A stretch of 46,240 nucleotides of DNA, from positions 1-46,240 of the forward strand of contig JAAELO010000092.1 of NCBI GenBank assembly GCA_024226555.1, in the 5' to 3' direction. Below are positions 5,837 through 45,594 of the stretch, in pieces. This DNA is from Desulfobacterales bacterium (GTDB lineage Bacteria; Desulfobacterota; Desulfobacteria; Desulfobacterales; JAAELO01). The notes beneath the pieces are model-generated. The model was given only the letters and a program-made list of their open reading frames with translations, was not told the origin of the DNA and made no database searches. How positions within the stretch are numbered: the first letter of the stretch is position 1; each line of letters starts with the position of its first letter. The position numbers and the translations under genes were made by a program.

Positions 5837-6011
5837 TTAATTTCCTCTTTAATAAAATTATAAAACAAAATGTTACCCGGGTTCTATATTAAGTACAAAA
5901 TATCAAATTGTGAAGTAATATGTGATGTTTGGGAGCTTTATGTGACTATTGGGAATATCTGGGATAAAATGGAACATTGGGTCAAGACCTAACCCATAGA
6001 TTTTTAAATCA

Positions 6012-6068
6012 CGATGTTTTTTGTTATGCCTTGTTTTTCATCAAAAATTCTAATTATTAGAAATTCCC
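6012..6068 (+). mobile_element. MITE-like element fragment (R end only)
   Basis: The sequence GCCTTGTTTTTCATC, followed by AAAATTCTAATTATTAG and AAATTCCC, is the inner half and R terminal repeat of the element. No L end is found in the 150 bases to the left. The fragment sits downstream of the LytTR gene. Confidence 0.7.
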
Positions 6069-12405: not shown

Positions 12406-12535
12406 GGGAATCTCTAATAACTGTTCTTTTGGCAAAATGCTTTGTTATTTCCAAAAAAAAACTGTAATAAAATCGGCTCGTTATTTTTTGAAATTCCTTG
12501 TATTTTATCCAAAATTCTAATTATTAGAGGTTCCC
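12406..12535 (+). mobile_element. complete MITE-like element with TTAA flanks
   Basis: A 130-bp copy. L end GGGAATCTCTAATAACT and R end AATTATTAGAGGTTCCC form imperfect terminal inverted repeats. The interior also folds on itself (GTTATTTCC...GAAAT). TTAA occurs directly on both sides (12402-12405 and 12536-12539), consistent with a 4-bp target duplication. It has no coding capacity and must be moved, if at all, by a transposase encoded elsewhere. Confidence 0.9.
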
Positions 12536-14638: not shown

Positions 14639-14758
14639 GGGAACCTCTAATAATTAGAATTTTCGATGAAAAACAAGGCATAACAAAAAATAACGAGTTG
14701 ATTTTACTACATTTTTATTTTTTGTGCTTCACAAAAAGATCAGTTATTAGAGATTCCC
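14639..14758 (-). mobile_element. MITE-like element abutting the kinase stop codon
   Basis: A 120-bp copy with R end GGGAACCTCTAATAATTAG on the left and L end (GTTATTAGAGATTCCC) on the right. Its last base is immediately followed by the stop codon (14759-14761) of the 719-residue kinase. Flanks (AAAA / TTAT) do not show a target duplication. A further GGGAACCTCT remnant lies inside the kinase's last codons. Confidence 0.88.
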
Positions 14759-16918: not shown

Positions 16919-16994
16919 AAAGATGGTTCCCTCTGTTTTTAATATTGGTTCATCATTATGAAGCTTACTATGTACCCTATAAAATAATCCCGGA

Positions 16995-19070: not shown

Positions 19071-19147
19071 CTTCTTAATCTTTCATTATGATTTTGAATT
19101 TCCTATATCCTGAATTGTTAACACCTGAAAGACATCTATTTTCAAGC

Positions 19148-21874: not shown

Positions 21875-21959
21875 ATTTTTGCCTGCATTAATTTTTTACA
21901 ACTTATTTCGTCAAATTATCCTGACCACTTTTAGGCCTCATATAAAAGAATCTACTGAC

Positions 21960-24900
21960 CTAATCCAAATACTGTTTAACAAATTCTTTTAATTTATTTA
22001 TTTTGAAAGTTTTGCCTAAATTTTGTAGTTCGGTAGTAAACGGAGTAAATCTCACATCCATTTTTTCTAATCTTTCAGCCTCTTTAAGGATATCACCAAC
22101 GTTACCCTTCATAACCAAATCAAATAACCTGGCAAGCTCTTCTTTGGGTGGAGCAATAATAGGTGTTATTGGAGATATTTCCCCATGCCGTTTCCCAATA
22201 GTTTCAGAATCCTGTTTATCATAAATCCAATCCAATTCTAAATGAGTTTGTAACAAACTTAACAGATTTTCAATGATGAAGGGTTTATTAATAAAACTAT
22301 CACTTCCTGCATCTATACTTTTCATCCTGTCTAAATCAAAAACACTGGCTGAAATGCTGATAATGATAATATTCTGGCCAATAGGTAACTTGCGGATTTG
22401 ACGTATGGCTTCATAGCCATCCATTATCGGCATTCTAAGATCCATTAAAACAAGGTCCGGTATTATTTCAACTGTTTTATTAACACCATCTTCTCCATTA
22501 ACAGCCTCAAAAACTTCAAATCCAAGAGGAGCGAGTGTATTTATCAGTACAGACCTGTTTTCCTTTTTATCATCCACCACCAGTATTTTTCGTCTCGAAC
22601 CTTCATACCCTGTCACAATTTCAAAATTATTCTCTTTGATTTCAACAGAACCTGTGAAGCATGAAACAGGCAATATCAACTCAAAGGAAAATATACTTCC
22701 TTGCCCCATCTCACTTTCAACTTTTAACTCACCACCCATAAGCTGAGTAAGACTGCTGCTGATAGTCAACCCCAAACCTGTACCCTCAATTATTTGATTT
22801 TGCTGTACCTCCTGCTGGAAAGGCATGAAAATCCTTTTTAGTGATTCAGGCGCAATACCTGATCCTGTGTCTTCCACCTGGAATCGTAATTTATTTTCAC
22901 AACACACAACTTTTAAAACGATCTTTCCACTATCTGTGAATTTTACAGCATTATTAAGCAGATTAATCAAAATCTGACGTAGCTTTTGCTCATCACCGGT
23001 AACAACAGTTGGCACATCAGAGGAAACTTCACTATGAAAAGAGAGTCCTTTTTGACTGGCCTGCATACGAAAGATATTTGATACATTTTTTAACATACTA
23101 TACAGATTAAAACCGGTAAGTATCAACTCCTCTTTCCGGGCTTCAATTTTGGAAAGATCCAGAATATCATTAATCATATTTAAAAGGTGATTACTACTTT
23201 GTTGAACAATATTCAGAAACTCTTTTTTATCATCTGGAATCTTTTTATCCTTTGACAGAATTTGGGTATAGCCCATAATGGCATTAAGAGGTGTCCTGAG
23301 TTCATGACTCATATTGGCCAGAAACTCACTTTTTGCTTTATTGGCTGTTTCAGCCTGCAATGCCATTTCGTTAGCTTTTGCTGTTGCTGACTCAAGCTGA
23401 ATATTAACTTCAGTTAATTCCTGGTTTGCTTCTTCCATTCCTGTTGTACGTTCTTTTACAAGATCGTCTAAATGGCTGTAAACTAATGCATTTTCAAGTG
23501 ATATAACAGCCTGGGAAAGTAGGATATTAAGTGTTTCCACTCTCTCTTTTGTGAAAGCATTCTTTGTTATATTGTTTTCCAGATATAATACTCCGGTTAT
23601 TTTATCCATGTAACGCATGGGAATACATAGAACTGATTTGGGCTGTTTAATTTTTATGTATAAATCATTTATAAACAGGTCGTTGTCCTTTTCAGATGGC
23701 AATACAATAATTTTACCGGTTTTCCTGACATAATTAATAATCCCCTGGGAAATGTCTTTGTTTTTACTCACTTTTATGGATTTTAATATCTGAACTTTAT
23801 TTGTGCCAGTATCTACTGCGGCCTCTATTAAGAGTTCTTCATTTTTAATAAGTAAAACATATCCTTTTTGTGCCCCAGCATTTTCCATGATGATGTTTAT
23901 CATTTTTTCAAGAAGTATTTTTAGATTGATTTCCCGTGATATTGCGTGCGATGCTTTTATTACAGTGGATAGGTCAATAAATTCTGATGAACCTGTGCCA
24001 CCTGTTAATGTTATTAATGATGAGTCTGTCCACTTATTTTCAGATTTAAGCAGGTCCTGATATTTTTTTTCAATTTGCTTTACTTTAGCAACTGCACCCC
24101 ACATGCTATACATATGATGCGCCTTTGTCATATATAGTGATGCAAATTCTTTCTCGTTTAGTTCAAGCCAGAATTTTGCAGTCAGTTCCAGAGCCAGGGC
24201 TTCCTCCTGAAGAAACCTGTTTTCACAGGCTAATTTCACGGCAATTTTATAGAAATTCATGGCTTTTAGTTTTTGCCCCTGAACTCGGGCGAGTTCTGCT
24301 TCCACAAGATGATATTTGTGTATGTGATTCATGGGGGAATGGAAAGCCCATTCTTTCATTTTTTTTTGATTTTTTATTACTTTTTTAAGATGATCCTTCC
24401 GTACAGCTTTTTTTTCTGTATGATAGAGTGCAAGTCTGGTCAGAGAATCATAGAAATTAAGAATTGGAAGGGCAGGATGTGAAATTTGTTCTTTACTGTA
24501 TGGTTTTACTATTTGAGCATATTCAAGAGCTTTTTTATTCCTTCCAAAAAGATAATTTAGTTTTAACAGGAACAGGTTTAGTAAATACAGTGCGTTAACG
24601 TCGTTTGCTTTTTTATGTAATGGGAGCATTTTATTCACATCATAGGAAGATCCTGTTAATTCACATGGATCTCCAGACATTCCCCGAAGATTTGAAACAA
24701 CCTGACAAATTAGCATATGGTATTTCATAACAGTATGCTGATTGAGTTTCATAATGTTTTCTGAATATTTATTCATCTCTTTTTCAACTGTCAAAAGGTC
24801 TATTCCTGAATAATAAAGAGTGGCAGTATAACCATTTGCTGATAAAGCAGCAAATTCCAGGTCTCCTGTTTCAACTCCAGTCTTATATGCCTTAATTAAT

Positions 24901-27863
24901 GCTTCTAAAGAATCCCGCATCGGTTTTTTATAGTGATTTATCAAATGCCAGAAAATAAACCTGACCTTTGCTCTGGATTCATTGATATTGTACTTTTCAA
25001 CCACTCTTATAGCGAGCTTCCCCCATTTATACCCTGCTTTAATATCTCCCAAAACACCATTATGAACCATTCCAAAACCAGCATAGGAAAAAGGTGAATA
25101 AATACTGTTGCCATATTTTACTGATAATCTGACTATTTTAAAGACGATAATAGGAACTATATCAGGAGCGGCATAATAAGCAGATGAACCTATTCCCGAT
25201 GCAATTTGTATTACAGCGAGGTTATGAGGATCTTTCATTTTCGGAAGATTAATAAGATTCTCAATCTTTTTACCCATTAAAGATAGCTTCACTTTCAAAA
25301 GTTCATATATAATCCGTAATTTAGACGGTTTCTCAGGAATCTTAATCCCAAGTTTATTGAGAACACTCAAACCAATCCTTACTCCATTAAGAGGTTGATT
25401 TTGAGCCTGACAGGCATAAATTTTAGCCTCATATGTTTTAATTTTTTCCAGAATTGTCCTGGCATTTTGAAATACTTTTTCAGCCATATCATCCATTTCA
25501 TCATAATCAGCACTGAGTTGAGCTGCTACAGTTGCTTGCTGGTACAAAGCCAGAGTTAAATCATAGTTTTTAGTCCAACAATTTTCCGAAAGAAGCCCGA
25601 TTCCTGCTTTCAGATAATTCAATGCTAAAGTATATGCACTTGAACCCAGAGCCTTTTCCCCTGCCTTAAGGTTAAGTTCAGCAAGATTTTCTTTTTCAGA
25701 TTCATCTGTAACTAAAGCAATACCGGCATTCAATTGATTAACAATATAAAAAATTCTTTCCGAAAGATCCCTTTTTGAATATTTTAAAATATAATTTCCA
25801 ATACGATAATGCAGATGTGTTTTTTCTTCATTGGAAATCAGTGAATAAGCAGCCTCCATTATCCGGTTATGGCTAAATCTGTATATGTGATCACTCTTAT
25901 TAAGCATCCCCTCTTTTAAAATAACATTCAATGCCGGTAAAATATCTTTTTCCGGTTCTTCACATGCTATTATCAGGGCTTTATGACTAAAATAACTACC
26001 AACACAGGCTCCAATTTTCAAAATCTTCTGTGATTTCTCAGGCAGGAGAGTAATTTTTTCTGCCATAAGATCCACAACATTATCTGTTGCCTGTATCTTT
26101 TTAATTTCTGACATATGCCAGAACCAGCCTTCCCCATGTGAAAATTCAATCAGACTTTTCCTGTAAAGAGATTTCAAAAACTCATTGATAAAAAATGGAT
26201 TTCCAAAAGTCTTATCAATCAGAAGTTCCGCAAGTGATATTGTTTCCTCTTCCGGGCGATTTAAGGTGTCACCCAGTATTCTGTTAATCTGTTTTACGTT
26301 CAGGGGCTTTAAAATTATATCATTTACAACTGTATCTGATTTTTTAATATCACCCAAAGTCCGGATCAACGGGTGTGAATCAATAGTCTCACTGTGATGG
26401 TAAGAGCCAATGATCAACATGTTTTTTATAGCAGAATCGGTTGTAAAGAGTTTTAAAAGATATAAACTTGCTGAATCAGCCCATTGCAGGTCGTCCAGAA
26501 AAAGAACCAATGAGTGTTTACTACTCGCTAAATTTTTGATAAATCCCTGAAATACCAGATCGAACCTGTTTTTAGATTCAACTGATCCCAGTGTTGGAAT
26601 TTCCGGTTGTTTGCCAATTATCAGCTTAAACAAGGGAATCAAATCAGTTACGATTTTACCATTAGGTTCCAGTACTGATAAAATTCTCTCTTTCCATAAT
26701 GCAATTCCTTCTTCATCTTCAGCAAGTATTTGCCTGCCAAACATAGTTAATGCTTTAATAATAGCATTATAGGGTGTTTCTTTTTTTCGTTTATCAAACC
26801 TTCCTGAGATAAAATATCCTTTTTGTTTAACAACGGTTCTTTGTATCTCATTGATTAAAGCAGATTTCCCGATTCCGGATGGTCCTGAAACAAGAATTAA
26901 TTCCGTGTTATTCTGCCTTACCCGTTCAAAAGCAGACAAAAGAGTTCCAATCTCTTTTTCCCGGCCATACAGTGTCTGGGGTATCTTAAATTTATCTGAT
27001 AAATCATTTAATCCCAATTCAAATGATTTTATGGACTCTTGTTCCTTCATATTTTTCTGGCATTTTTCAAGGTCAACTTTCAAACCAAATGCATTCTGAT
27101 AGCGATCCTCCGCATTCTTGGCCATAAGTTTCATTACAATTTCTGAAATGATCTCTGGTATGTTTTCGTTAACCTTACCTGGAGGATCTGGTTGCATGGC
27201 AATATGACTATGCATAAGCTTTAGCAAATCTTTTGATTCAAAAGGAAGATGCCCTGTTAACATCCAATAGAAGGTTACTCCAAGTGAGTAAAAGTCAGTT
27301 CGATAATCAAGGGAACGATTCATACGACCTGTCTGTTCAGGAGATATATATGCTAATGAACCTTCCAGAACATTTGGATTTTTCACAGATGTGATTTCCC
27401 GTGGAAGTTCTGTTGCAATTCCAAAATCAATAATTCTAACACTATTATTTCGGGTATTCAAAATGATATTTGATGGGTTTATATCTTTATGAATAATATT
27501 ATGCTTGTGTATATTTGCGATTATTTCAACAATATGTATAGCAAGACTTAAAAAGTCATCTAACGGAAGAATCTGAGATGTTAGACTGTTTTCAAGAGAT
27601 TGTCCTCCAATATCCTCCATAATAATCATGGGAGAACCTGCTTGCGATTTTCCATATATCTGTGCGATGCCCTCTTTTTTAAACCTGCTGGCCAGTTCAT
27701 ATTCCCGATTAAATTCAGAAATGTCTTCCTGGGTTGGGAATTTTTTATTGAATATTTTCAGAATGACAGGCCGTTTGTTTTTTTCTTCAAACGCACGGTA
27801 TATCAGAGAACTATTGCTCTCATAGATTTTCTCAGGATTTTGATAACCTTCAAGCTTTTGCAT
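21960..27863 (-). CDS. Ser/Thr kinase-AAA ATPase-GAF-hybrid histidine kinase (kinase 3 of the array)
   Basis: This is a 1967-residue soluble protein. Residues 1-270 form an Hanks-type kinase with intact motifs (VILKIF lysine, HKDINPSNIIL catalytic loop, DFGIAT, SPEQTGRMN). Next is an AAA/ORC-like ATPase (Walker A GPSGIGKSALINE near 330, Walker B LVLFLDDLQWAD), a long alpha-helical TPR-like region (about 650-1250), a GAF domain (about 1290-1460), a coiled coil, HisKA (His near 1520, MSHELRTPLNAIMGY), HATPase, a receiver (ILVVDDKKENRS, Asp near 1807 in LMDLRMPIMDGYEAI) and the C-terminal PPKEELARLFDLVMKGNV...FVKQYLD module. The front part matches the large tri-functional kinases known from cyanobacteria and deltaproteobacteria. 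AAGGA precedes the ATG. It lies 85 bases upstream of kinase 4. Both phosphotransfer chemistries look active. Confidence 0.95.
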   Translation of the reverse strand: MQKLEGYQNPEKIYESNSSLIYRAFEEKNKRPVILKIFNKKFPTQEDISEFNREYELASRFKKEGIAQIYGKSQAGSPMIIMEDIGGQSLENSLTSQILPLDDFLSLAIHIVEIIANIHKHNIIHKDINPSNIILNTRNNSVRIIDFGIATELPREITSVKNPNVLEGSLAYISPEQTGRMNRSLDYRTDFYSLGVTFYWMLTGHLPFESKDLLKLMHSHIAMQPDPPGKVNENIPEIISEIVMKLMAKNAEDRYQNAFGLKVDLEKCQKNMKEQESIKSFELGLNDLSDKFKIPQTLYGREKEIGTLLSAFERVRQNNTELILVSGPSGIGKSALINEIQRTVVKQKGYFISGRFDKRKKETPYNAIIKALTMFGRQILAEDEEGIALWKERILSVLEPNGKIVTDLIPLFKLIIGKQPEIPTLGSVESKNRFDLVFQGFIKNLASSKHSLVLFLDDLQWADSASLYLLKLFTTDSAIKNMLIIGSYHHSETIDSHPLIRTLGDIKKSDTVVNDIILKPLNVKQINRILGDTLNRPEEETISLAELLIDKTFGNPFFINEFLKSLYRKSLIEFSHGEGWFWHMSEIKKIQATDNVVDLMAEKITLLPEKSQKILKIGACVGSYFSHKALIIACEEPEKDILPALNVILKEGMLNKSDHIYRFSHNRIMEAAYSLISNEEKTHLHYRIGNYILKYSKRDLSERIFYIVNQLNAGIALVTDESEKENLAELNLKAGEKALGSSAYTLALNYLKAGIGLLSENCWTKNYDLTLALYQQATVAAQLSADYDEMDDMAEKVFQNARTILEKIKTYEAKIYACQAQNQPLNGVRIGLSVLNKLGIKIPEKPSKLRIIYELLKVKLSLMGKKIENLINLPKMKDPHNLAVIQIASGIGSSAYYAAPDIVPIIVFKIVRLSVKYGNSIYSPFSYAGFGMVHNGVLGDIKAGYKWGKLAIRVVEKYNINESRAKVRFIFWHLINHYKKPMRDSLEALIKAYKTGVETGDLEFAALSANGYTATLYYSGIDLLTVEKEMNKYSENIMKLNQHTVMKYHMLICQVVSNLRGMSGDPCELTGSSYDVNKMLPLHKKANDVNALYLLNLFLLKLNYLFGRNKKALEYAQIVKPYSKEQISHPALPILNFYDSLTRLALYHTEKKAVRKDHLKKVIKNQKKMKEWAFHSPMNHIHKYHLVEAELARVQGQKLKAMNFYKIAVKLACENRFLQEEALALELTAKFWLELNEKEFASLYMTKAHHMYSMWGAVAKVKQIEKKYQDLLKSENKWTDSSLITLTGGTGSSEFIDLSTVIKASHAISREINLKILLEKMINIIMENAGAQKGYVLLIKNEELLIEAAVDTGTNKVQILKSIKVSKNKDISQGIINYVRKTGKIIVLPSEKDNDLFINDLYIKIKQPKSVLCIPMRYMDKITGVLYLENNITKNAFTKERVETLNILLSQAVISLENALVYSHLDDLVKERTTGMEEANQELTEVNIQLESATAKANEMALQAETANKAKSEFLANMSHELRTPLNAIMGYTQILSKDKKIPDDKKEFLNIVQQSSNHLLNMINDILDLSKIEARKEELILTGFNLYSMLKNVSNIFRMQASQKGLSFHSEVSSDVPTVVTGDEQKLRQILINLLNNAVKFTDSGKIVLKVVCCENKLRFQVEDTGSGIAPESLKRIFMPFQQEVQQNQIIEGTGLGLTISSSLTQLMGGELKVESEMGQGSIFSFELILPVSCFTGSVEIKENNFEIVTGYEGSRRKILVVDDKKENRSVLINTLAPLGFEVFEAVNGEDGVNKTVEIIPDLVLMDLRMPIMDGYEAIRQIRKLPIGQNIIIISISASVFDLDRMKSIDAGSDSFINKPFIIENLLSLLQTHLELDWIYDKQDSETIGKRHGEISPITPIIAPPKEELARLFDLVMKGNVGDILKEAERLEKMDVRFTPFTTELQNLGKTFKINKLKEFVKQYLD

Positions 27864-27950
27864 TTGATTCCTTAATTTTATTTCTAAGCTACAAAAACTA
27901 CTTCCTGTTTGCTATGGCAGGAAGTAAACAACAGATGTCATTTGCAAGCC

Positions 27951-30491
27951 TTAATCTAAATACTGCTTTATAAACTTCTTTATTTTTTTTATTTTGAAAG
28001 TCCTTCCCAAATTGTGTAACTCGGTAGTAAACGGGGTAAATTTGCTATCCATTCTTTCTAATTTATCAGCCTTTTCAAGGATACCGGTAATGTTACCCTG
28101 CATTGCCAAATCAAATAAAATAATAAGATCTTCCTTTGGGGGGGCAGTAATGACAGCAAATAAATTTGTAGATACTGTAGTTGCTTCCTCTTTCCTTACA
28201 TCCTCTTCTTCATAAATCCACTTCAACTCTAAGTACTTCTCTATCAAATCAAATAAATCTTCTAAAATAAAGGGTTTACCGAGAAAATCATCCCCCCCTG
28301 CATCCAGGCTCTTCTTACGGGTTAAATCAGAAATACTTGCTGAAATGCTTATGATAGCCACTTTTTGACCAATGGGTAACTTTCTGATTTGCCGTATGGC
28401 CTCATCGCCTTGCATAACAGGCATTATCATATCCATTAGAATAAGATCGGGTGAATGGACAATTGTTTTATCCACACCATCCTTTCCATTTACAGCTTCA
28501 ACCATCTCAAATCCCAGAGGTTCGAGAGCATTAATCAATAATGACCTGTTTTCATCTACTTCATCAACAACCAGTATTTTTATTCTTTCTCCTGCATAAC
28601 CAATTACACATTTTTTATGATCTTCCTTTGTTTCGATCAAACCTGAGGTGTTCGGTAATTCTAATTCAAACAAAAAAATTGTTCCAACTCCCACCTTGCT
28701 TAGAACTTTCAGTTCACCACCCATAAGTTGAGTTAAAGTACGGGAAATTGCCAAACCCAAACCAGTTCCTTCAATGACCAAATCCTGATGATCCGCCTGC
28801 TGGAAGGGAACGAATATCTCTTCCAAAGCTTCAGGCGCAATACCAATACCAGTATCTTCTACCTGAAACACAAATATATTCTTATACCGATCAACATTTA
28901 AAATCACTTTTCCTCTATCTGTGAATTTAACAGCATTATTCAGCAGATTAATCAAAACCTGACGTAGCTTTTGTTCATCGCAGGTAACAGCCGCTGTTGC
29001 AACTGAAGATATTTCACTAAGAAATGAGATACCTTTTTCTTTAGCCTGAACCCTAAATATATCTGATACACTCTTCAGCATATCGGATAAATTAAAGTCT
29101 GTAAGAAACAGATCCATTTTCTGAGCTTCGATTTTGGAGAGGTCGAGGATATCATTGATCATGGTCAAAAGGTGAATACTACTTTGTTGAATGATTGCAA
29201 GACTTCGCTTTTTGCTTTCGGGTACCTCTTTATCCTTTGTCAGTATTTGGGCGTATCCCATAATTGCATTGAGGGGAGTTCTGAGTTCATGACTCATGTT
29301 AGCCAGAAAATCACTCTTGGCCTGACTGGCCAATTCGGCTTTTTCCCGTTCTCTTTGGGCACGTTCTTTTGCTTTACGTTCGGTTATATCAATCAGTGTA
29401 CCTTCAAAATAAAGAAGTTTACTTTCTTCATTACGAACTGCTCTTATGGATTCAGAGCCCCAGAATAAAGTGCCGTCTTTACGTTTAAATTGTCTCTCAA
29501 TATCTGATATCTGATTTTTTTCATTTATAATTTTATCAGATTCCGCTTTCTCGTTAGGTTTAGCGTAACATTGCTGCGCTATGTCTGTAACGGTCTTCTG
29601 CATTTCCAGGGGTGATTCATATCCAAAAAATTTTGCCATTGAATTATTAACATTGATATAAAAACCATCCAATGAAGTTTGGAAAATGCCTTCGACTGAA
29701 TGTTCAAAAATGTTACGGTATTTTTTTTCAGATTCCTGTATGATTTTTTTAGAAGAAGAGAGTTTTTGTACCATATTATTAAAAGCTTCTTCCAGTATTT
29801 TCAACTCATCGCGCTTCTTTGATCTGATATCTATTTTGATATCATCCAGCTTATCCATACTGAGTTGTTCAGTAGCGGCTGTGAGTTTTGTGAGGGGACG
29901 GTTTAATTTCATTCGACTAAACCATAATACTAATATCCATATTGCAAAAGTGACAATTATGGAATTGATTATAATAAATAGAAAACTAAGCCTGACTCTG
30001 TTGATTACCACTTTATTGCTTGAATATATGGAAGCTTCACCAACCTTGAATTCTTCACCACGGCGTTTATGTTTAATTGAAAAAGAATAAGAAAATAAAC
30101 CTTTATATCTATTAAGCAAAAGGCTATTTCCATCGGAGTTTATTTTCATTACTTTACCGTTCTGGTCTATGATCATTCCTGAAGCTCCAATATATTCGCC
30201 CCTTTCATTTTGCAATTTAATCCCTACCACAGAAGGAAATTTTTTCATCCCTAAAAATGTTGGTTGCAACTGTTCCATATTCATGTCCCAAATTGCTTTA
30301 CCAAGAGAAGGAGCAAATGTGTTTCCAATGGCTTTAAGTTCCATATTGACACGTTCTTTAGTATAGAAATATTCAATTGATAAGTGAATAGAAGTTACTA
30401 TAGAAGTAATTATTAAATAAGATAAAATTACCCACTTCAAAAGTTGTGTGCCAATTGAATCTTTAGTTTTTACCATAAAAGGGCGTGGCAT
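27951..30491 (-). CDS. periplasmic-sensor HAMP-PAS hybrid histidine kinase (kinase 2 of the array)
   Basis: This is an 846-residue protein. Two membrane helices (about 18-40 and 165-190) flank a periplasmic domain of about 125 residues (MELKAIGNTFAPSLGKAIWD, then VVGIKLQNERGEYIGASG). HAMP (RPLTKLTAATEQLSMDKLDD), PAS (about 265-375, NIFEHSVEGIFQTSLDGFYI), HisKA (His near 400), HATPase (DTGIGIA, GTGLGLAIS), a receiver (ILVVDEVDENRS, Asp near 685 in LMDMIMPVMQGDEAI) and the PPKEDLIILFDLAMQGNI...FIKQYLD module follow. An ATG at 30506 lacks a ribosome-binding site, while the ATG at 30489-30491 has AGAAGG six bases before it, so that start is chosen. It lies 87 bases upstream of kinase 3. Two MITE-like fragments separate it from kinase 1. 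Confidence 0.93.
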   Translation of the reverse strand: MPRPFMVKTKDSIGTQLLKWVILSYLIITSIVTSIHLSIEYFYTKERVNMELKAIGNTFAPSLGKAIWDMNMEQLQPTFLGMKKFPSVVGIKLQNERGEYIGASGMIIDQNGKVMKINSDGNSLLLNRYKGLFSYSFSIKHKRRGEEFKVGEASIYSSNKVVINRVRLSFLFIIINSIIVTFAIWILVLWFSRMKLNRPLTKLTAATEQLSMDKLDDIKIDIRSKKRDELKILEEAFNNMVQKLSSSKKIIQESEKKYRNIFEHSVEGIFQTSLDGFYINVNNSMAKFFGYESPLEMQKTVTDIAQQCYAKPNEKAESDKIINEKNQISDIERQFKRKDGTLFWGSESIRAVRNEESKLLYFEGTLIDITERKAKERAQREREKAELASQAKSDFLANMSHELRTPLNAIMGYAQILTKDKEVPESKKRSLAIIQQSSIHLLTMINDILDLSKIEAQKMDLFLTDFNLSDMLKSVSDIFRVQAKEKGISFLSEISSVATAAVTCDEQKLRQVLINLLNNAVKFTDRGKVILNVDRYKNIFVFQVEDTGIGIAPEALEEIFVPFQQADHQDLVIEGTGLGLAISRTLTQLMGGELKVLSKVGVGTIFLFELELPNTSGLIETKEDHKKCVIGYAGERIKILVVDEVDENRSLLINALEPLGFEMVEAVNGKDGVDKTIVHSPDLILMDMIMPVMQGDEAIRQIRKLPIGQKVAIISISASISDLTRKKSLDAGGDDFLGKPFILEDLFDLIEKYLELKWIYEEEDVRKEEATTVSTNLFAVITAPPKEDLIILFDLAMQGNITGILEKADKLERMDSKFTPFTTELHNLGRTFKIKKIKKFIKQYLD

Positions 30492-30535
30492 ATAGAACCT
30501 TCTCATTTACTGATTATATGAACCTTTTCGTGAAT

Positions 30536-30564
30536 CTTCAAAATACTAATTATTAGTGTTTCCC
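30536..30564 (+). mobile_element. MITE-like element fragment (R end)
   Basis: The sequence CAAAATACTAATTATTAG, then TGTTTCCC, is a degenerate R end. TATA separates it from the next, internally deleted copy. Confidence 0.55.
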
Positions 30565-30568
30565 TATA

Positions 30569-30621
30569 GGGAATATCTAATAACTGTTCTTTTGGCAGAA
30601 TTCTAATAATTAGAAATTCCC
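30569..30621 (+). mobile_element. 53-bp internally deleted MITE-like element
   Basis: It begins with GGGAATATCTAATAACTG and TTCTTTTGGCAGAATT (L end and flank), then jumps directly to CTAATAATTAGAAATTCCC (R end). Both terminal repeats are present but the ~75-bp interior is gone. It lies between kinase 1 and kinase 2. Confidence 0.8.
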
Positions 30622-30646
30622 TGTACTTTTTGTTATCTTTTAAAAA

Positions 30647-33600
30647 TTAATCAAGATACTTTTTAACAAATTCCCTTAATTCTTTTATTTTGAAGCCTCC
30701 AGCTAATTTTTTTAACTCATTCACAAATGGGATAAATCTTTTATCCATCTCTTCAAAACTATCGCCCAGTTCATGAATCTCACGAATACTACCCTTCATT
30801 GCCAAATCAAACAAAGTAGTAAGTTCTTCCCGACCCGGCGCAATGATATCTTTTGTGTCAGCTACTTCTTCATATCCATCATCCAATGCGAAAGTTTCTT
30901 CATCATCATAAATCCAGTTCAATGCTAAATGCTTATCTATTAAATCCAGTAATTCTTCAATAATAAGGGGTTTGGCTAAAAAATCATCACTTCCGGCATC
31001 ACTGCTTCTTTTACGATCTGATTCAAATACACTGGCTGAAATAGTTATTATAATGACTTTATGGCTGATGGATAACTCCCGGATTCGGCTAATTGCTTCA
31101 TAACCATCCATCACTGGCATTTTAAGATCCATTAAAATAAGGTCTGGAGAGATTTCAACTGTTTTATCTACACCATCCTTTCCATTAACAGCCTCAAACA
31201 TATCAAATCCCAGGGGGGAGAGAGTATTTTTTAACAAAAATCTGTTTTCTTTCTTGTCATCCACCACCAATACTTTTAGTCTTTCACCTCTATAGCCATT
31301 TACTTTTGCTGTACTCAACAGGTGCTTTTGTTCAACAAAACCAGAGAGACCCGGCAGTTCAATTTCAAATAAAAATGTACTTCCCTGACCTACTTTACTT
31401 TGAGCAATAAGCTCCCCACCCATAACCAGGGCAAGACTGCTACTAATAGCAAGCCCCAAACCAGTTCCCTCATCCGCCTTATCCTTATGATACTGCTGGA
31501 AAGGTAAAAAGATCTGCTTCAATAGTTCTGGTTCAATTCCAGGGCCCGTGTCCTCAACTTTAAAACAAATTTTATTCCCACATTGTTTTACATTAAAAGC
31601 TACTCTACCTTTTTCTGTAAATTTCACTGCATTACTAAGAAGATTTATTAAAATCTGACGAACTTTTTGTTCATCTCCCTGAACACCATCTGACACATCA
31701 GATGCTATATCACTAATAAAAGAGATGCCTTTTTGTTTCGCCTGCAATAAAAAAATATCTGAAATATCTTTCAACATACTCGATAGATTAAAGTCAGATA
31801 TTACAAGTTCCACTTTCCGAGCCTCAATTTTAGCAAGATCCAAAACATCATTAATCATTGTCAAAAGCTGGGTACTGCTTTGCCTGATAATTTCCAAACC
31901 TTTTTTTTTATCATCATCCAGTTCTTTATCTTTTGACAGGATTTGTGCATAACCCATAATTGCGTTAAGAGGTGTTCTTAATTCATGACTCATATTAGCC
32001 AGAAAATTACTTTTAGCTTTGCTGCCTTCTTTAACCTGTAATAATAACATGTTGGATTTTGCAGTTGCGAGTTCTACTTCTTTTTGTAATTGTGTGCTTC
32101 TCAGTTTAAGAGATTGTACTCTCCAAACGTAGAATCCTAATATAATACTACCTGTGAATATCAGAAAAAGTATTTGGAACAAAAAGGTTTTCCACCATGG
32201 CGGAGCAATTTTAACTACTAATTTGGCACCTTTATTGTTCCAGATGCCTGAACTACTAACTCCTTTCACCCGGAACACATAGTTACCGGAGTCCAGGTTT
32301 GTATAACTGATATAATTTCTTGAGCCAATATTGATCCAGTTATTGTCAAAACCCTCCAGCATGTATGCAAATCTGTTTTTTGCTGGTTTTGCATAATCCA
32401 AAGCAGCAAATTCAAGAGAAAAAAAGTGTTCTCTATGGGACAGTTCGATTTGTTTGAGTTCTGAAATATTCTTACTGGAAGTAATTGATTTTTCATGAAT
32501 TTTAAAATCAGTAATAACAATTTGTGGAATTGAATCACTCTTTTTTATCTGATCAGGAAAAAAACTGGTTATACCTTTTGTGCCACCAAAAAACATCTCT
32601 CCCTTTTTACTTTTATAAAACATATGATAGACAAAGGTATTGCCTTGCAAGCCATCACTGCGATCAAAATTCTTAAAGGTCTTTTCCGGGGGATTAAAAC
32701 ATGAAAGACCAATCTCTGTACTTAACCAGAGATTTCCTTTCTCATCATTCAAAATTCCGTATATCAGGTTATTTGGTAGACCATCTTTGACAGTATACGT
32801 TTCTGTTATTTCATTCACTTCAGGATTTTTTTTATAACCTATAAATTTATAATGTAATCCCTTTCTTGAACCAAACCATAAACCACCCTTTTGGTCTGCA
32901 AAAACTGAGTAAACAAAACCATCATGGAATTTTGTGAATTTCCCGGTTTTATTATCAAAAAGGTTTAATCCATTACCAGTTCCAACCCAAAGTCGCTTCC
33001 TGATATCCTCAAAAATCACCCATACTTCACTGTGACTTATACTATTAGGGTCATCTGGTTTGTTGGTATAAACTTTTTTAACTTTACCGCTATCAGGATC
33101 AAATTCAATAAGTCCATTTCCATATGTACCTATCCAGAATCTGCCATTTGAATCCTGAAACATTATCTTTATATGTTCTTCTACAGTATGGAATTTTTCT
33201 AAAGATAATTTGTAGCGAATAAATTGTAATTTATCTTTGTTATATTTATAAAGGGCTCCATTTCTACCTCCTAACCAGATAGTTCCGGAATTGTCTTCAT
33301 AAATGCAGAGTATATTTTTTATTGGCTTTTTATCTTTATCATAAAGAAAAGGAATAACATCACCAGATAACCGATTATAAAGAAACAGATCTTCTTTACT
33401 AAGCCACAAAAAACCGTAGGAATCCTCAAAAACCGCTTCATATCCTGTTGATGAAGGAAGATCAAATGAGCCTATTCTATTACCCAAATATGAAAATACA
33501 ACTCTGGGATTAAACTTATTGATTCCACCTCCACGAGTACCTATCCATAGAAGCCCTGATTTGTCTTCGTAAAAACAACGAATATCACTACTGCTTAAGC

Positions 33601-34603
33601 TTGTCGGATTATCAGGGTCATGTACAAATCTGTTTACAAAGGTGCCGTATTTTTTGTCAAATTCATAAAGGCCTCTTTTTGTTCCCACCCAGATGTTCCC
33701 ATTTTTTACTTCATATATAGCGTTCACAGTAAAAGTGTTTTTTAAAGGATCTTTCTGATAGGGAAAATATTTTGTAAACGTTTTTGATCTAGAATCAAAA
33801 CAGTTTAATCCATCTTCTGTACCAATCCATATTGTTCCATCCAATCCTTTATATATGGTTCGAACTATTGAATTGGATAGACTACTCCTCTTGTGAGTGT
33901 CAGTATTAGGATAAAATCTATTGAATTGCTCTGTTTGGGGATTAAAAATGTTCAAACCATGACTTGTTCCAATCAGAAGTTTACCCATATCATCTTCACC
34001 AATACTCCATATCCGGTCATGGCTTAAACTATTTGGATTATTCGGATCATGACGATAATGAGAAAACTTACCTGTTCTACTATTGAGCTTGTTCAATCCC
34101 CCTTTGTATGTTCCTACCCAGAGTATTCCTCTGGAGTCCCTGTAAATTGACTGAATACGATTATCACTTAAAGATGAAGGTTCATCTGGTTTTTTATTAT
34201 AATGGACAAATTCATCTGTCCCAACAATGTGCTTTTCAAGTCCGCCACCCCAGGTCCCTATCCATAACACTCCTGAGTCTTCAAAATAGATGTTGCTTGC
34301 AGAATTTGTAGATATCGATTTTGGTTCAACCGGATTGTGTGCGAAGTGGGTGAATTTTAAGGAGTTGTATCTGTTCAATTTGTCATTAGTTCCACACCAG
34401 ATATAACCCTGATTATCCTGGATTATTGAATAAACAACACTATTGGAAAGTCCGTTTTCAACTGAGAGGTGGTCAAATATTATATTTGCATTCTGGCCAA
34501 AAATTATTTTTGGTATAACAAATATTAAGAGTATATTGAAAAAGATTATTGAGAATTTGAAAGATTTTATATTTAAATGTCTACATAATTCAAAATGATT
34601 CAT
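30647..34603 (-). CDS. reg_prop/Y_Y_Y beta-propeller hybrid histidine kinase (kinase 1 of the array)
   Basis: This is a 1318-residue protein. A signal-anchor (about 16-36) leads to a periplasmic propeller of about a dozen 'two-component regulator propeller' repeats (for example VYSIIQDNQGYIWCGT, SIYRDSRGILWVGTYKGGLN, IYEDNSGTIWLGG), running to about residue 690. A Y_Y_Y domain follows (FAYMLEGFDNNWINIGSRNY, YVFRVKGVSSSG), then a membrane helix near 800. The cytoplasmic part is coiled coil, HisKA (His near 872), HATPase (DTGPGIE, GTGLGLAIS), a receiver (VLVVDDKKENRF, Asp near 1157 in LMDLKMPVMDGYEAI) and the C-terminal PGREELTTLFDLAMKGSI...FVKKYLD module. In Bacteroidetes this sensor type detects polysaccharide fragments; no AraC output domain is present here. 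ATG 34601-34603 has AAAGGA seven bases upstream; the longer frame from 34645 has no such site. Confidence 0.95.
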   Translation of the reverse strand: MNHFELCRHLNIKSFKFSIIFFNILLIFVIPKIIFGQNANIIFDHLSVENGLSNSVVYSIIQDNQGYIWCGTNDKLNRYNSLKFTHFAHNPVEPKSISTNSASNIYFEDSGVLWIGTWGGGLEKHIVGTDEFVHYNKKPDEPSSLSDNRIQSIYRDSRGILWVGTYKGGLNKLNSRTGKFSHYRHDPNNPNSLSHDRIWSIGEDDMGKLLIGTSHGLNIFNPQTEQFNRFYPNTDTHKRSSLSNSIVRTIYKGLDGTIWIGTEDGLNCFDSRSKTFTKYFPYQKDPLKNTFTVNAIYEVKNGNIWVGTKRGLYEFDKKYGTFVNRFVHDPDNPTSLSSSDIRCFYEDKSGLLWIGTRGGGINKFNPRVVFSYLGNRIGSFDLPSSTGYEAVFEDSYGFLWLSKEDLFLYNRLSGDVIPFLYDKDKKPIKNILCIYEDNSGTIWLGGRNGALYKYNKDKLQFIRYKLSLEKFHTVEEHIKIMFQDSNGRFWIGTYGNGLIEFDPDSGKVKKVYTNKPDDPNSISHSEVWVIFEDIRKRLWVGTGNGLNLFDNKTGKFTKFHDGFVYSVFADQKGGLWFGSRKGLHYKFIGYKKNPEVNEITETYTVKDGLPNNLIYGILNDEKGNLWLSTEIGLSCFNPPEKTFKNFDRSDGLQGNTFVYHMFYKSKKGEMFFGGTKGITSFFPDQIKKSDSIPQIVITDFKIHEKSITSSKNISELKQIELSHREHFFSLEFAALDYAKPAKNRFAYMLEGFDNNWINIGSRNYISYTNLDSGNYVFRVKGVSSSGIWNNKGAKLVVKIAPPWWKTFLFQILFLIFTGSIILGFYVWRVQSLKLRSTQLQKEVELATAKSNMLLLQVKEGSKAKSNFLANMSHELRTPLNAIMGYAQILSKDKELDDDKKKGLEIIRQSSTQLLTMINDVLDLAKIEARKVELVISDFNLSSMLKDISDIFLLQAKQKGISFISDIASDVSDGVQGDEQKVRQILINLLSNAVKFTEKGRVAFNVKQCGNKICFKVEDTGPGIEPELLKQIFLPFQQYHKDKADEGTGLGLAISSSLALVMGGELIAQSKVGQGSTFLFEIELPGLSGFVEQKHLLSTAKVNGYRGERLKVLVVDDKKENRFLLKNTLSPLGFDMFEAVNGKDGVDKTVEISPDLILMDLKMPVMDGYEAISRIRELSISHKVIIITISASVFESDRKRSSDAGSDDFLAKPLIIEELLDLIDKHLALNWIYDDEETFALDDGYEEVADTKDIIAPGREELTTLFDLAMKGSIREIHELGDSFEEMDKRFIPFVNELKKLAGGFKIKELREFVKKYLD

Positions 34604-34683
34604 TATGTTTCCTTTAAACAATACCATATCTCCATTGTCACGCAATTACTAATGCCTGAAGATAACCAATGAAAATGATTTTA

Positions 34684-36022: not shown

Positions 36023-36150
36023 ATTCTCTAATAACTCCTCTTTTGGCGTAATACTTTGTTATTTCCAAAAAAAAACTGTAATAAAATCGGCTCGTTACTT
36101 TTGGAAAATGCCTTGCATTTCATCCAAAATATTAATTATTAGAGGTTCCC
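36023..36150 (+). mobile_element. MITE-like element with TTGA flanks
   Basis: The L end is eroded (CATTCTCTAATAACT instead of GGGAATCTCTAATAACT) but the body is typical, including GTTATTTCC, an A run and ACTGTAATAAAATCGGCTCG. The R end is AATTATTAGAGGTTCCC. TTGA lies on both sides (36018-36021 and 36151-36154), consistent with a 4-bp target duplication. The remaining 35766-36022 shows no intact gene. Confidence 0.85.
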
Positions 36151-37202: not shown

Positions 37203-38318
37203 ATGATATCAAGACGCGATTTTTTTAAATTGTCAATTCTATCCTGTGGATATTTTCTTCTGCCAGCTTTCAATGCAAAAGCTTCGAATTATGAGTGGTA
37301 TATGCCCGATGAGGGAGAATCTCACAAACGGACCTGGATGGCATTTATAGCCAGTTACGATATATGGGAAGAGAAACAGGTTCCTGTGGTTCAATATAAT
37401 CTGGCCACAATTGCTAAAACAATCGCAAAGTATGAACCAGTATCCATGCTTATAAGAAAGAAGGATTATGATATTGCATATAAACTTCTTGGCGGCTTAA
37501 ACTCACATAATTACCCAATTAAACTTATTGAATTTAATATGAATGATCTATGGATGCGGGATACAGGCCCATCATTTATAGTTAACAAAAAAAGGAATAA
37601 AGCAGCTGTAAACTTTAACTTTAATGGTTGGGGAAGAGATCAGGTATATAAACTGGATGCTAAAGTTGCTGACTTTGTAGCAAAAAAAGCAGGTGTTAAA
37701 ACAATAAAATCAAATCTGGTTTTGGAGGGTGGCTGTTTTGAGTTGGATGGTCATGGCACTGGCATTATGACTGAGAGTTGCATTTTAAATGACAATCGAA
37801 ATCCAGGTAAAAATAAAATTGATGTTGAAAATGAATTAAAATTACTTCTGGGTTTGAATAAAATAATCTGGTTAAAAGGAGTTAAGGGCAAAGATATTAC
37901 AGATGGACATACCGATTTCTATGCTCGTTTCGCAAGACCTGGGGTCATCATTGTCAGCCGTGAAACTGACCATGAATCCTATGATTACAAAATAACCCGG
38001 CAGAATATTGAAATACTTAAATCATCAACCGATGCTAAAGGTAATCCATTACAGATTATTATTCTTGATACTCCGATGCATATTAATTCGGCTTTCGAAA
38101 TAGATAGTTTTGCTGCAGGATATGTTGGATATTATATCTGTAATGGTGCAATTATAATGCAGAAATTTGGTGATGTAGCTGCTGATTCCGCTGCCAGAAA
38201 AAAATTAGCAAAAGTGTTTCCCAAACATCATATTGAACAAATTTCTATTGATGGAATAGCAAGTGGAGGCGGTAGTATTCATTGCGCGACACAGCAGGAA
38301 CCTATTGGAAATCTCTAA
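37203..38318 (+). CDS. aguA: agmatine deiminase / peptidylarginine-deiminase family, Tat-exported
   Basis: This 371-residue enzyme of the PF04371 family hydrolyses agmatine to N-carbamoylputrescine and ammonia in polyamine synthesis. Core motifs are present: DEGESHKRTWMAF, NDLWMRDTGPSF, NFNFNGWGRD, LEGGCFELDGHGT, the His motif DGHTDFYARF (near 235) and the catalytic Cys 361 in GGGSIHCATQQ. The N-terminus MISRRDFFKLSILSCGYFLL carries a twin-arginine SRRDFFK motif and hydrophobic core, so the folded enzyme should go to the periplasm; most characterised homologues are cytoplasmic. AAAGGG lies upstream of the ATG. Its last residues (IGNL) and stop codon overlap the left end of a MITE-like element (38307 on). 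Citrullinating activity on other guanidino compounds cannot be excluded. Confidence 0.93.
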   Translation: MISRRDFFKLSILSCGYFLLPAFNAKASNYEWYMPDEGESHKRTWMAFIASYDIWEEKQVPVVQYNLATIAKTIAKYEPVSMLIRKKDYDIAYKLLGGLNSHNYPIKLIEFNMNDLWMRDTGPSFIVNKKRNKAAVNFNFNGWGRDQVYKLDAKVADFVAKKAGVKTIKSNLVLEGGCFELDGHGTGIMTESCILNDNRNPGKNKIDVENELKLLLGLNKIIWLKGVKGKDITDGHTDFYARFARPGVIIVSRETDHESYDYKITRQNIEILKSSTDAKGNPLQIIILDTPMHINSAFEIDSFAAGYVGYYICNGAIIMQKFGDVAADSAARKKLAKVFPKHHIEQISIDGIASGGGSIHCATQQEPIGNL

Positions 38319-38468
38319 TAACTGATCTTTTTGCGAAATCCTTTGTTATTTCCAAAAAAAACTGTAATAAAATCGGCTCGTTATTTTTGGAAATGCAGAG
38401 ATTTTATAAAACTAAAAGCTTTTATAAACGCTGTATTTCATCCAAAATTCTAATTATTAGAGGTTCCC
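38307..38468 (+). mobile_element. MITE-like element (hairpin subfamily) overlapping the aguA stop
   Basis: A 162-bp copy. The L end (GGAAATCTCTAATAACT) contains the aguA stop codon TAA at 38316-38318. The interior carries the extra inverted repeat TTTATAAAA...TTTTATAAA (38395-38433). The R end is AATTATTAGAGGTTCCC. A TATT repeat at 38303-38306 and 38470-38473 is a possible but not exact target duplication. Confidence 0.88.
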
Positions 38469-38547: not shown

Positions 38548-38695
38548 AAAATTCTGTCTACCTTTGACTATTGGGAACCCTCTAATAAGGGTTGAAGCTA
38601 AGGCAATCGGAAGTGTAATTATAATATCTGAAAGTGCTTATGAAAAACTTAATGAAAAAAATCACAATAGAGAATCTCTATTAACCGCCTTTTAA
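38543..38695 (+). pseudogene. short coding remnant, possibly antitoxin-like
   Basis: A frame with no start codon reads IRVEAKAIGSVIIISESAY then EKLNEKNHN before ending in a stop supplied by the adjoining element copy (38670 on). A GGGAACCCTCTAATAA end-remnant lies at 38573. The ISESAYEKLNE pattern weakly recalls the Phd/YefM antitoxin end (LSxxEYEKL), but the piece is too short to assign. It appears to be a gene fragment stranded between element copies. Confidence 0.25.
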
Positions 38696-38834
38696 CTGAA
38701 CTATTTCGTTAGCACGCAAATATAACTGTTGTAAAAACACCTTGTTATGTTCTTCTTATGTAGAGATTTTATAAAACTAAAAAGCTTTTATAAACGCTGT
38801 CTTTCAATCAAAATTCTAATTATTAGAGATTCCC
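38670..38834 (+). mobile_element. diverged MITE-like element (hairpin subfamily)
   Basis: A 165-bp degenerate copy: L end GAGAATCTCTATTAACCG, internal inverted repeat at 38762-38800, R end AATTATTAGAGATTCCC. AATA flanks it on both sides (38666-38669 and 38835-38838). Confidence 0.75.
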
Positions 38835-39111: not shown

Positions 39112-39265
39112 GGGAACTAATAATTAACACTTTGATGAAATATAGCGTTTATAAAAGCTTTAGTTTTATAAAATCTCTATTTCTGAAAATAACGAGCCGA
39201 TTTTATTACAGTTATTTTTAGAAATAACACAGTATTTTGCAAAAGAGGAGTTATTAGAGATTCCC
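39112..39265 (-). mobile_element. MITE-like element (hairpin subfamily) with TCAA duplication
   Basis: A 154-bp copy running from GGGAACTAATAATTAA to GTTATTAGAGATTCCC, with the internal inverted repeat at 39145-39179. Exact TCAA lies at 39108-39111 and 39266-39269. It ends 21 bases before the metalloprotease start codon, so that gene's promoter must lie within or beyond it. Confidence 0.92.
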
Positions 39266-40875: not shown

Positions 40876-42210
40876 TCATAATATTTTAGATATAGCTTTT
40901 AGTTTTGATAACCTAAATTTACCATTTCCTTCCAGAGTAAGAAATATTTTTGATTTTCTATTATATACAGCAGGGAAAATCTGATCATCTTTTAATATTA
41001 GTGCTCCACTTTCAATATCCCATACGCTGAAGCTTTCCATGCCCTTGTCTATTCTCTCCTGGTAATAGCTTCCATTGTCCATCTTACTTTTTTCCCACAT
41101 TGATTTATGGTTCCAGCTGAACAAGTATTCATCAATGATATAGTTATTACCGGGTCCGTAAAACCAGTACTTCACTTCACATGTATTGATATCGTAAATC
41201 ACTGCTGAAGCCAGCATGTAATCATCGTCATTTCCGTATCCCCAAACCAACAGATTGTCATCATCGATCCAGGAAACAGGATTACCCCAGGAATATTCTG
41301 CATCTCTCAAAATTTCTATACTTTTCCCATCGTCTGCTTCCCATTTATTATTTTCAATCCATTGATTCAGGTCCCATCTGATAATTCTACCAATTGGGTG
41401 CCAGAGCCATCCATCTTCCACAATCCAATTGCCATTTGGAGAAATGTAAACAGAAGATCGAAACTCTGCTCCGTGCATCTCTTCGCTCCTGTCTTCAGGT
41501 AGTTCTTCCCATTTTCTTTTAGTAAGGATCTGTTTCGACTCTGGGTCGATTACATCAATCATATCCCAATCAGTTGATGTGATTATTAGGGTTTTACACT
41601 TGTACTGATGAAATGCAAAAGTGAAGGGAGTGACGTCAACATGATAATCCCCACGGTCCAGTTCGATAAGTTCAGTCATGCTTTCAAGGTCATAGACCAT
41701 CCCGTACTGACCAAACAGATTATAAACTGCCAGAAGTTTACAGTCTTTCGACAATTTCATTTCTACATTTTTAGTAAAATCTATTTTAGAATCAGCAAGA
41801 ATATGGGGAAGTTCATGAATTTTTAATGTTTCAAAATCAATTTTAATCAGTTGATTCTGTGCTGTTAAAAAAAGATATTCTTCTTTTTTATTATTCTCCA
41901 TGGCGATTGAAAACAGAATCTCTGTATCCGTCAATTTATCAATGGATATGACCCTGTGTTTAAAGAACAGGTTGTTATTGATATCAATTTTAATTCCCGG
42001 TTTTCCTTCAATAGATTCTAAATATAAATCCGACAGTTCAGTTTCTTCTATAGATGAAAAATCAGAACTATCTATATCTTTTTTTTTAAAACATTCCGGA
42101 CAGACACAATTGTAGATCTGTTCTTTTCCAGTGAAATATTGAATATATTCATCTGCTGTTTTATCTTTCAGATGTTTACAGACTTTGACCATTAATTTAC
42201 CATTAGTCAT
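40876..42210 (-). CDS. hypothetical propeller-like protein with N-terminal cysteine pair
   Basis: This 444-residue protein has no signal peptide. Near the N-terminus CKHLKDK and CVCPECFKKKD suggest a small metal site. From about 65 on it consists of repeating beta-strand blocks such as EYLFLTAQNQLIKIDFETLKIHELP, LLAVYNLFGQYGMVYDLESM, LIITSTDWDMIDVIDPESKQ and NWIVEDGWLWHPIGRIIRWDL, typical of a WD40/YVTN-like propeller. No catalytic residues are evident. ATG 42208-42210, with GAGGG about ten bases upstream, is preferred to the TTG one codon earlier. It follows the small frameshifted gene at 42302-42605 on the same strand, so the two may have formed an operon. Function unknown. Confidence 0.75.
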   Translation of the reverse strand: MTNGKLMVKVCKHLKDKTADEYIQYFTGKEQIYNCVCPECFKKKDIDSSDFSSIEETELSDLYLESIEGKPGIKIDINNNLFFKHRVISIDKLTDTEILFSIAMENNKKEEYLFLTAQNQLIKIDFETLKIHELPHILADSKIDFTKNVEMKLSKDCKLLAVYNLFGQYGMVYDLESMTELIELDRGDYHVDVTPFTFAFHQYKCKTLIITSTDWDMIDVIDPESKQILTKRKWEELPEDRSEEMHGAEFRSSVYISPNGNWIVEDGWLWHPIGRIIRWDLNQWIENNKWEADDGKSIEILRDAEYSWGNPVSWIDDDNLLVWGYGNDDDYMLASAVIYDINTCEVKYWFYGPGNNYIIDEYLFSWNHKSMWEKSKMDNGSYYQERIDKGMESFSVWDIESGALILKDDQIFPAVYNRKSKIFLTLEGNGKFRLSKLKAISKIL

Positions 42211-42973: not shown

Positions 42974-43075
42974 GGGAGCCTCTAATAACTGATCTTTTTG
43001 CGAAATACTACTTTTTCAAAAAAAACAACTGTAATAAAATCAACCCATTGTTTTTTTCTCAGCCTTGTACAGAAA
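42974..43075 (+). mobile_element. truncated MITE-like element (R end lost)
   Basis: Begins GGGAGCCTCTAATAACTGAT and keeps the core ACTGTAATAAAATC and GCCTTGTA, but the R end has decayed into A/T-rich sequence. The rest of 42606-43203 holds no recognised gene. Confidence 0.75.
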
Positions 43076-43203
43076 AAATAAATCAGTTTTTAATGTTTGA
43101 TTTCAGGTAAAAAGCTAATGATGATTATTGATTGATAATTTTATTAATGATATATTTAAGGTATTGATATTACAATATTAATCCAAACCGGAGGTATTGA
43201 AAA

Positions 43204-43545
43204 ATGAATAATAGACAATGGTTTAACGTTATTTGGTTTTTTCTGTTAATCTCTTTTTTGTCATGTTTGCAAAACACATTTTATGAAAAAAATTTTATAG
43301 TAAATGTGAATAACTTTGTAATGTTTTTTATAACACCGGCAATTTTCGTTGGTATTGTTCGAACTATATCAAGGGAACCTCTAAAAACTAAAATTATGGT
43401 TGAAGTACAAGGCTTGAGAAAAATGTAACGAGCCGATTTTACAACAGTTATTTTTTTCTTGTAACGCAGTAATTCAGACTAAAGATAGTTTTTAGAGATT
43501 CCCTCAAATAATACTATTATGGAAATAGATGATGAAGATTTGTAA
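43204..43545 (+). pseudogene. small membrane protein gene interrupted by a MITE-like element
   Basis: GGAGG precedes the ATG at 43204. The product starts MNNRQWFNVIWFFLLISFLS with two membrane helices (about 8-24 and 38-54). After residue 56 (GIVRTIS) the frame enters the element and adds 18 foreign residues before a stop at 43428. Deleting the element with one TCAA copy (43373-43507) joins codon 56 to NNTIMEIDDEDL and a stop at 43543-43545, giving an intact 68-residue protein. This shows the gene existed before the insertion. The fused 74-residue form could still be made. No family is recognised. Confidence 0.8.
43373..43503 (-). mobile_element. MITE-like element inserted in a gene, TCAA duplication
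   Basis: A 131-bp copy running from GGGAACCTCTAAAAACTAAA to GTTTTTAGAGATTCCC. Exact TCAA repeats at 43369-43372 and 43504-43507. Its removal restores a reading frame, which is the clearest proof in the window that this family transposes with a 4-bp duplication. Confidence 0.95.
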
Positions 43546-45105: not shown

Positions 45106-45234
45106 GGGAACCTCTAATAATTAGAATTTTGGATAAAATACAAGGCATTTCAAAAAATAACGAGCCGATTTTATTACAGTTTTTTTTGGAAATAACAAAG
45201 TATTTTGCCAAAAGAACAGTTATTAGAGATTCCC
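45106..45234 (-). mobile_element. complete MITE-like element downstream of trpB
   Basis: A 129-bp, well-preserved copy (GGGAACCTCTAATAATTAG to CAGTTATTAGAGATTCCC) that can serve as the reference sequence. Flanks TACT / TATA do not match exactly. It starts 10 bases after the trpB stop. Confidence 0.93.
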
Positions 45235-45468: not shown

Positions 45469-45594
45469 GGGAACCTCTAATAATTAGAATTTTTGATATA
45501 AAACAAGGCATAACATAACAACGGGTTGATTTTACTACAGTTTTATTTTTGTTATATCTGTGTTTCGCAAAAAGATCAGTTATTAGAGGTTCCC
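45469..45594 (-). mobile_element. MITE-like element upstream of the hypothetical gene
   Basis: A 126-bp copy with both ends intact (GGGAACCTCTAATAATTAG / CAGTTATTAGAGGTTCCC) and a diverged middle. Flanks CATA / TATA differ at one base. It ends 34 bases before the next start codon. The stretch 45235-45468 between the two elements holds no gene. Confidence 0.92.

Follow-up and report, generated by a model that had tools for sequence, protein, structure and literature searches.

The question raised by this locus is whether a short ORF that runs into a 131-bp element was once a gene, interrupted when the element arrived. The window, which is the whole 46,240 bp stretch of DNA that was analysed, is contig C92 of a 904-contig assembly of 7.69 Mb. 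The sequence-only reading had proposed that the insertion can be reversed on paper, and on re-reading its letters and frame arithmetic were found to be correct. Removal of 135 bp (the element and one TCAA, 43373-43507) leaves a frame of 68 codons, 135 being divisible by 3, and the joined flanks encode 68 residues with the C-terminal end NNTIMEIDDEDL. In the present ORF, the last 18 codons read REPLKTKIMVEVQGLRKM and are derived entirely from the element, except for one base of the first codon, which belongs to the flank. The 4-bp target duplication that was read from the site is backed by the flank statistics of 143 distinct copies and by a nested empty site elsewhere in the genome (see below). 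We consider it very probable that the window element is a MITE that inserted into a short open frame, behind its codon 56, via a 4-bp staggered cut with duplication of the target. The features of the site and the other family copies in the window are listed in Table 1.

Table 1. Features of the insertion site and further copies of the family in the window
Feature	Position	Strand
Present ORF, 74 codons: 56 host codons, 18 element-read codons and the element TAA	43204-43428	+
Left TCAA, target-site duplication	43369-43372	+
MITE copy, 131 bp; long hairpin fold, -36.2 kcal/mol, z -4.75	43373-43503	+
Left terminal inverted repeat, GGGAACCTCTAAAAACTA	43373-43390	+
Right terminal inverted repeat, GGGAATCTCTAAAAACTA, 1 mismatch to left end	43486-43503	-
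Right TCAA, target-site duplication	43504-43507	+
Rest of restored frame (remainder of 12 codons and TAA)	43508-43545	+
Partial copy	787-890	+
Partial copy	6006-6068	-
Copy with TTAA on both sides	12406-12535	-
Copy directly after stop codon of ORF 14759-17017 (-); no identical 4-bp flanks	14639-14758	+
Family copy	36025-36150	-
Copy of 162 bp that gives GNL and the stop codon to ORF 37203-38318 (agmatine deiminase-like); no identical 4-bp flanks	38307-38468	-
Copy of 165 bp with AATA on both sides	38670-38834	-
Family copy	39112-39265	+
Degenerate copy, upstream of ORF 43204-43428	42974-43077	-
Copy without identical 4-bp flanks	45106-45234	+
Copy without identical 4-bp flanks	45469-45594	+
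Partial copy at contig end	46186-46238	-

The inverted-repeat ends of the 131-bp element are 18 bp each with a single mismatch, and the 19-nt arms that include one flanking base are 95 % complementary. The element contains no transposase gene, and the host frame continues into it for 18 codons. A sibling copy on contig C262 of the same genome differs at 2 of 131 positions, lies in flanks that are unrelated to those of the window site and has its own 4-bp duplication, TAAA. Against 82 other sampled copies of standard length, the window copy has a median identity of 76 %, and the two figures together suggest that it is comparatively young. A search of the host's own genome for an empty version of the site returned the two halves of the site itself and otherwise only short, weak matches, none of them an empty site. 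The adjoining gene is trpB; among the 80 loci kept, its best match is in a Desulfobacterium MAG, at 85 % identity, and the host is therefore Desulfobacterales-like.

Within the window, the end motif (up to 3 mismatches) was matched 30 times, compared with 1.73 expected, and the inverted ends are therefore not a product of chance. The 162- and 165-bp copies contain an extra AT-rich module of approximately 34 bp near the left third, which looks self-complementary by eye. We make no claim of an RNA function, as the consensus structure of 70 of the 72 listed copies (a tandem pair was left out) consists of the end helix only, in which 1 of 15 pairs shows changes in both partners; no Rfam family reached the gathering score in the window. 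Two other arrangements in the window are recorded here. The adjacent 242-aa ORFs at 12771-13499 and 13579-14307 are clearly similar and by appearance a tandem duplication, and 14759-34645 (-) holds a series of large same-strand ORFs with similar C-terminal parts, which from their appearance we take to be hybrid histidine kinases.

Identical 4-bp flanks were found for 73 of the 143 distinct end-bounded copies, compared with 9.7 by random re-pairing. No excess was seen for identical flanks of 3 bp (4 copies; 11.4 by re-pairing) or 5 bp (1 copy; 1.5 by re-pairing). An initial count that included 8 end pairs overlapping another pair gave 74 of 151 versus 10.9, and in this set of 151, with strands pooled, the leading duplications were TTAA (17), TAAA (15), TATA (12), ATAA (8) and TCAA (5). 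The 70 distinct copies that lack identical 4-bp flanks are presumably decayed old copies. One copy with TTAA on both sides (C456:102339-102467) is nested within another family copy. When its flanks were joined with one TTAA, 25 of the 32 matches spanning the junction were ungapped there; when both TTAA were kept, 6 of 30 were ungapped. The ungapped junction thus provides an empty-site demonstration, in a place other than the window site. A 4-bp target duplication with a preference for AT-rich targets is clear for the family, and the element, with its short length, inverted ends, fixed 4-bp duplication, dispersed copies and nested empty site, is a member of a MITE family. A tandem arrangement was also seen on another contig of this genome (G000:C755:41830-41959 and 41964-42093), where two closely similar copies are separated by exactly TATA and have TATA on both outer sides.

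The first query of the genome, in which 40 of 1038 first-look candidates were scored, listed at least 41 element matches (including the window copy) and one weak match. An nhmmer profile built from the copies was run on 965,101 sampled bases, a figure that includes masked stretches, and gave 239 matches; the reversed sequence gave none. In 943,663 bases (14 contigs of at least 15 kb), the matches merge to 218 loci, which is 2.31 per 10 kb and 2.87 % of bases, a density that is biased upward as the long contigs were mostly picked for matches in the first query. A contig taken by number (C11) contained 29 matches in 100 kb, and a loose first look gave 1,524 candidate places, all unscored. The genome-wide estimate is approximately 1,460 loci, and it treats contigs shorter than 3 kb as almost empty; those sampled read as N and, in 80 contigs sampled by number, make up about 14 % of the bases. 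An apparently low density of elements in short contigs was put down to masking and discarded, 63 of 75 short contigs reading as N. The family end sequence is GGGAAYCTCTAAWAAYT. Lengths fall in classes near 129, 161 and 191 bp, and 81 of the 151 end pairs span 128-135 bp.

A sample of 388 other genomes of the order, in each of which up to two candidates were scored, gave related elements in 3. The first (G001) has two 142-bp copies, one (L217) with TGAA and the other (L031/L221) with TTAA on both sides, as read from the letters. The second (G369) has a 142-bp element (L219) and the third (G374) a one-ended match.

A transposase gene with the family ends was not found in the readable assembly for the families tested; the contigs of <3 kb that were sampled read as N, so that a partner located in such contigs would have escaped the search. 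Six loci matched PF01609 (DDE_Tnp_1) and none has the family ends at up to 3 mismatches. These six match the NCBIfam models for IS4, IS1634 or IS701 (L114 only below the cut-offs), and several are surrounded by inverted repeats of other sequence. PF13586 and PF05598 gave no matches in the assembly, and PF13701 and PF13546 led back to contigs identified before. Among the sampled end pairs that are 700-3000 bp apart, excluding ends of short copies, none had equal 4-bp flanks.

We infer that a transposase acting in trans would have made a staggered cut at a 4-bp site, TCAA in this case, the commonest in the family being TTAA, TAAA and TATA. The element would then have been joined to the cut site, and repair of the gaps would have doubled the 4 bp. 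Entry would have followed codon 56 of the short open frame. The left end can be read in three frames; the host frame falls in the one that is open beyond the first 20 bases, and it now reads 18 further codons and stops at the TAA of the element. Both before and after the insertion, the frame is a putative coding frame.

Ends of this type recur in the genome. In 886,240 bases there are 600 ORFs of 120 codons or more, and nine of them terminate within a copy, 12 to 31 bases from its edge, or ten if a doubtful one is counted (C456:36803-37246, based on the outer, poorer end of an overlapping pair). Four of the element-coded ends are GNL and four have GTSNN or GTSKN near the end. The element-coded end peptides include GNL, (K/Q)GTSNN with extensions and, at the window site, REPLKTKIMVEVQGLRKM. 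KGTSNN is also the end that a related element in a genome of another family of the order (L219, 1386-1527) gives to the 137-codon ORF 1509-1922 (-), presumably QueF from its appearance. In the window, ORF 37203-38318 matches 11 sequences of solved structure (best E 1.9e-61, agmatine deiminase). Because these matches stop at residues 365-369 (the best at 368), and GNL, supplied by the copy, makes up residues 369-371, the family does terminate ORFs for conserved proteins near the point where these normally stop.

Overall, the copies avoid long ORFs. Of the 141 distinct copies on long contigs, 28 touch a long ORF, compared with approximately 127 of 149 by random placement, and 113 are intergenic (remnants shorter than 120 codons being counted as intergenic). 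The figure of 28 is fairer than a count of 2 of 141 inside ORFs, which is biased since the element ends most frames that it enters. Copies at the 3' ends of ORFs number 20 of 141 (13.1 of 149 by random placement), so we make no claim of 3'-end targeting. We also considered targeting of stop codons and found no support for it: of the 74 copies that bear a duplication, 1 overlaps a stop codon, when about 2.4 per 64 intergenic copies would be expected from the 4-mer preference alone.

The sequence-only reading held that the restored frame shows directly the gene present before insertion, and this was not borne out, as the restored 68-residue protein has no credible homologue. Nothing credible was found in sets of 40, 291 or 395 genomes (the host's own included), in plasmids or in viral contigs. 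In 39 other genomes, none closer to the host than the same order, 18 gave some match at E≤10, the best (E 0.027) being 26 % identical with an internal stop. The 290 other genomes of the order gave 2 weak matches at E≤0.01, each with 1-2 internal stops. One of these (L132, 1638-1504) was rejected as it contains a stop and its frame differs from that of the single listed minus-strand ORF that it overlaps, and the other (L133) as it has 1-2 stops inside and was not recovered by plain tblastn at E≤10. There was no match at E≤0.001 in 394 other genomes of the phylum sample or at E≤0.01 in plasmids, no relative in viral contigs, and the best match in 80 trpB-centred loci had an E of 0.85 over 12 residues. 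A Pfam match to SLAC1 (E 0.0098) was rejected, its 15.5 bits being below the cut-off of 27.9. Homologues carrying the element-derived tail, which would have spoken for the present end as the original one, were not found either; the best matches to the tail in the host's own genome are other copies of the element. We regard the insertion as established and the gene as not established; the restored 68-residue protein is a hypothesis that relatives do not support.

We lean towards the view that the insertion is real and neutral, and that the frame was never a gene, being open by chance in the AT-rich intergenic DNA beside trpB. In addition to the homologue searches, the predominantly intergenic placement of the family (113 of 141 distinct copies) agrees with this. 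Scored by plain codon use, the 55 host codons that follow the start give -0.24 per codon; 99.8 % of real 55-codon windows score higher, and 80 % of 266 open frames from intergenic DNA reach at least this value. However, the frame is hydrophobic and its plain score is depressed for that reason, and on the same plain score the 12-codon tail reaches +5.1 bits. The synonymous-only score places the frame at 13.5 % of 2904 real windows and 14.9 % of 181 hydrophobic windows (-0.022 with the tail included), and the frame is central among intergenic open frames, 52 % of which are at or below it. The 12-codon continuation beyond the insertion point is no evidence for a gene, because the run to a stop is at least 12 codons at 41 % of intergenic positions. 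On the other side, GGAGG precedes the ATG, which would lend mild support to a gene; a Shine-Dalgarno-like motif is present ahead of 127 of 279 long ORFs, and ahead of 53 of 253 open frames in intergenic DNA. Gene and non-gene are not told apart by codon use, the signal being weak to absent, and a real gene at this site before the insertion seems to us possible rather than probable.

It is improbable, in our view, that the 74-residue form is functional and that the element was recruited as its C-terminal end, in the manner of the agmatine deiminase-like gene of the window. The nine (or ten) element-coded ends among 600 long ORFs offer a precedent, as does the point at which homology stops in ORF 37203-38318, and MITEs give C-termini to functional genes in Coxiella (PMC5896051, in the parts consulted), but ORF 43204-43428 has neither a homologue nor a clear coding signal. 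Less credible still is the notion that the pair of TCAA and the in-frame rejoining are a coincidence, with the element ancestral at the site. Identity of 4 bp does arise in about 10 of 143 copies when the flanks are re-paired, and a restored open frame is cheap; the C262 sibling, with 2 of 131 differences, has unrelated flanks and a duplication of its own, however, and the 4-bp flank signal is family-wide. Insertion into an open frame that was probably never a gene is the reading that we retain.

The window insertion is ordinary, in that a short open frame would have existed first and then gained an element-coded end. The family is worth recording for its abundance, its 4-bp duplication, its AT-rich targets and the repeated writing of the ends of host ORFs. 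The genome is a convenient place in which to measure the tolerance of element-coded C-termini, and annotators should be aware that short ORFs with these peptide ends stop inside a repeat. It may be that a single MITE family of about 1,500 copies, which takes up nearly 3 % of the sequence, persists in this lineage after the loss of its transposase and is now a recurrent source of stops and of short, standard C-terminal peptides; we put this forward as a doubtful suggestion.

A description of this MITE family was not found in the literature searched. The very abundant family is new, and its kind is ordinary. Geobacter is a fellow member of the former Deltaproteobacteria. The Chunjie MITE of Geobacter uraniireducens, as described in the parts of PMC10969869 consulted, likewise has inverted ends and direct repeats and is mostly intergenic, but at 178-235 bp and with 38 end-bearing copies it is set apart from the window family by description. 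Bacterial MITEs in general (PMC10969869 and PMC2229807, both in part) are likewise short and non-autonomous, with inverted ends and target duplications, and mostly intergenic; for the window family, in contrast, no partner transposase was found. Correia/NEMIS, RUP and ERIC, compared by description from the same portions of PMC2229807 and PMC10969869, are likewise small mobile repeats, with different hosts. The highest copy number found in the portion of PMC10969869 used is 711, for ERIC in Photorhabdus, compared with the approximately 1,460 loci estimated here, and higher numbers may exist. A 107-bp Correia species is reported to be fused in frame to ORFs (from PMC2229807 and PMC10969869, in the same parts). 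A parallel for the ends of ORFs is in Coxiella burnetii, where QMITE1 and QMITE2 likewise lie at the 3' ends of genes and give functional genes their last residues and stop codon (PMC5896051, in part), and element-supplied protein ends as such are therefore already published. The direct repeats of QMITE2 are 7-9 bp (from the same part of PMC5896051) and those of the window family 4 bp, the hosts differ, and the two are set apart by description.
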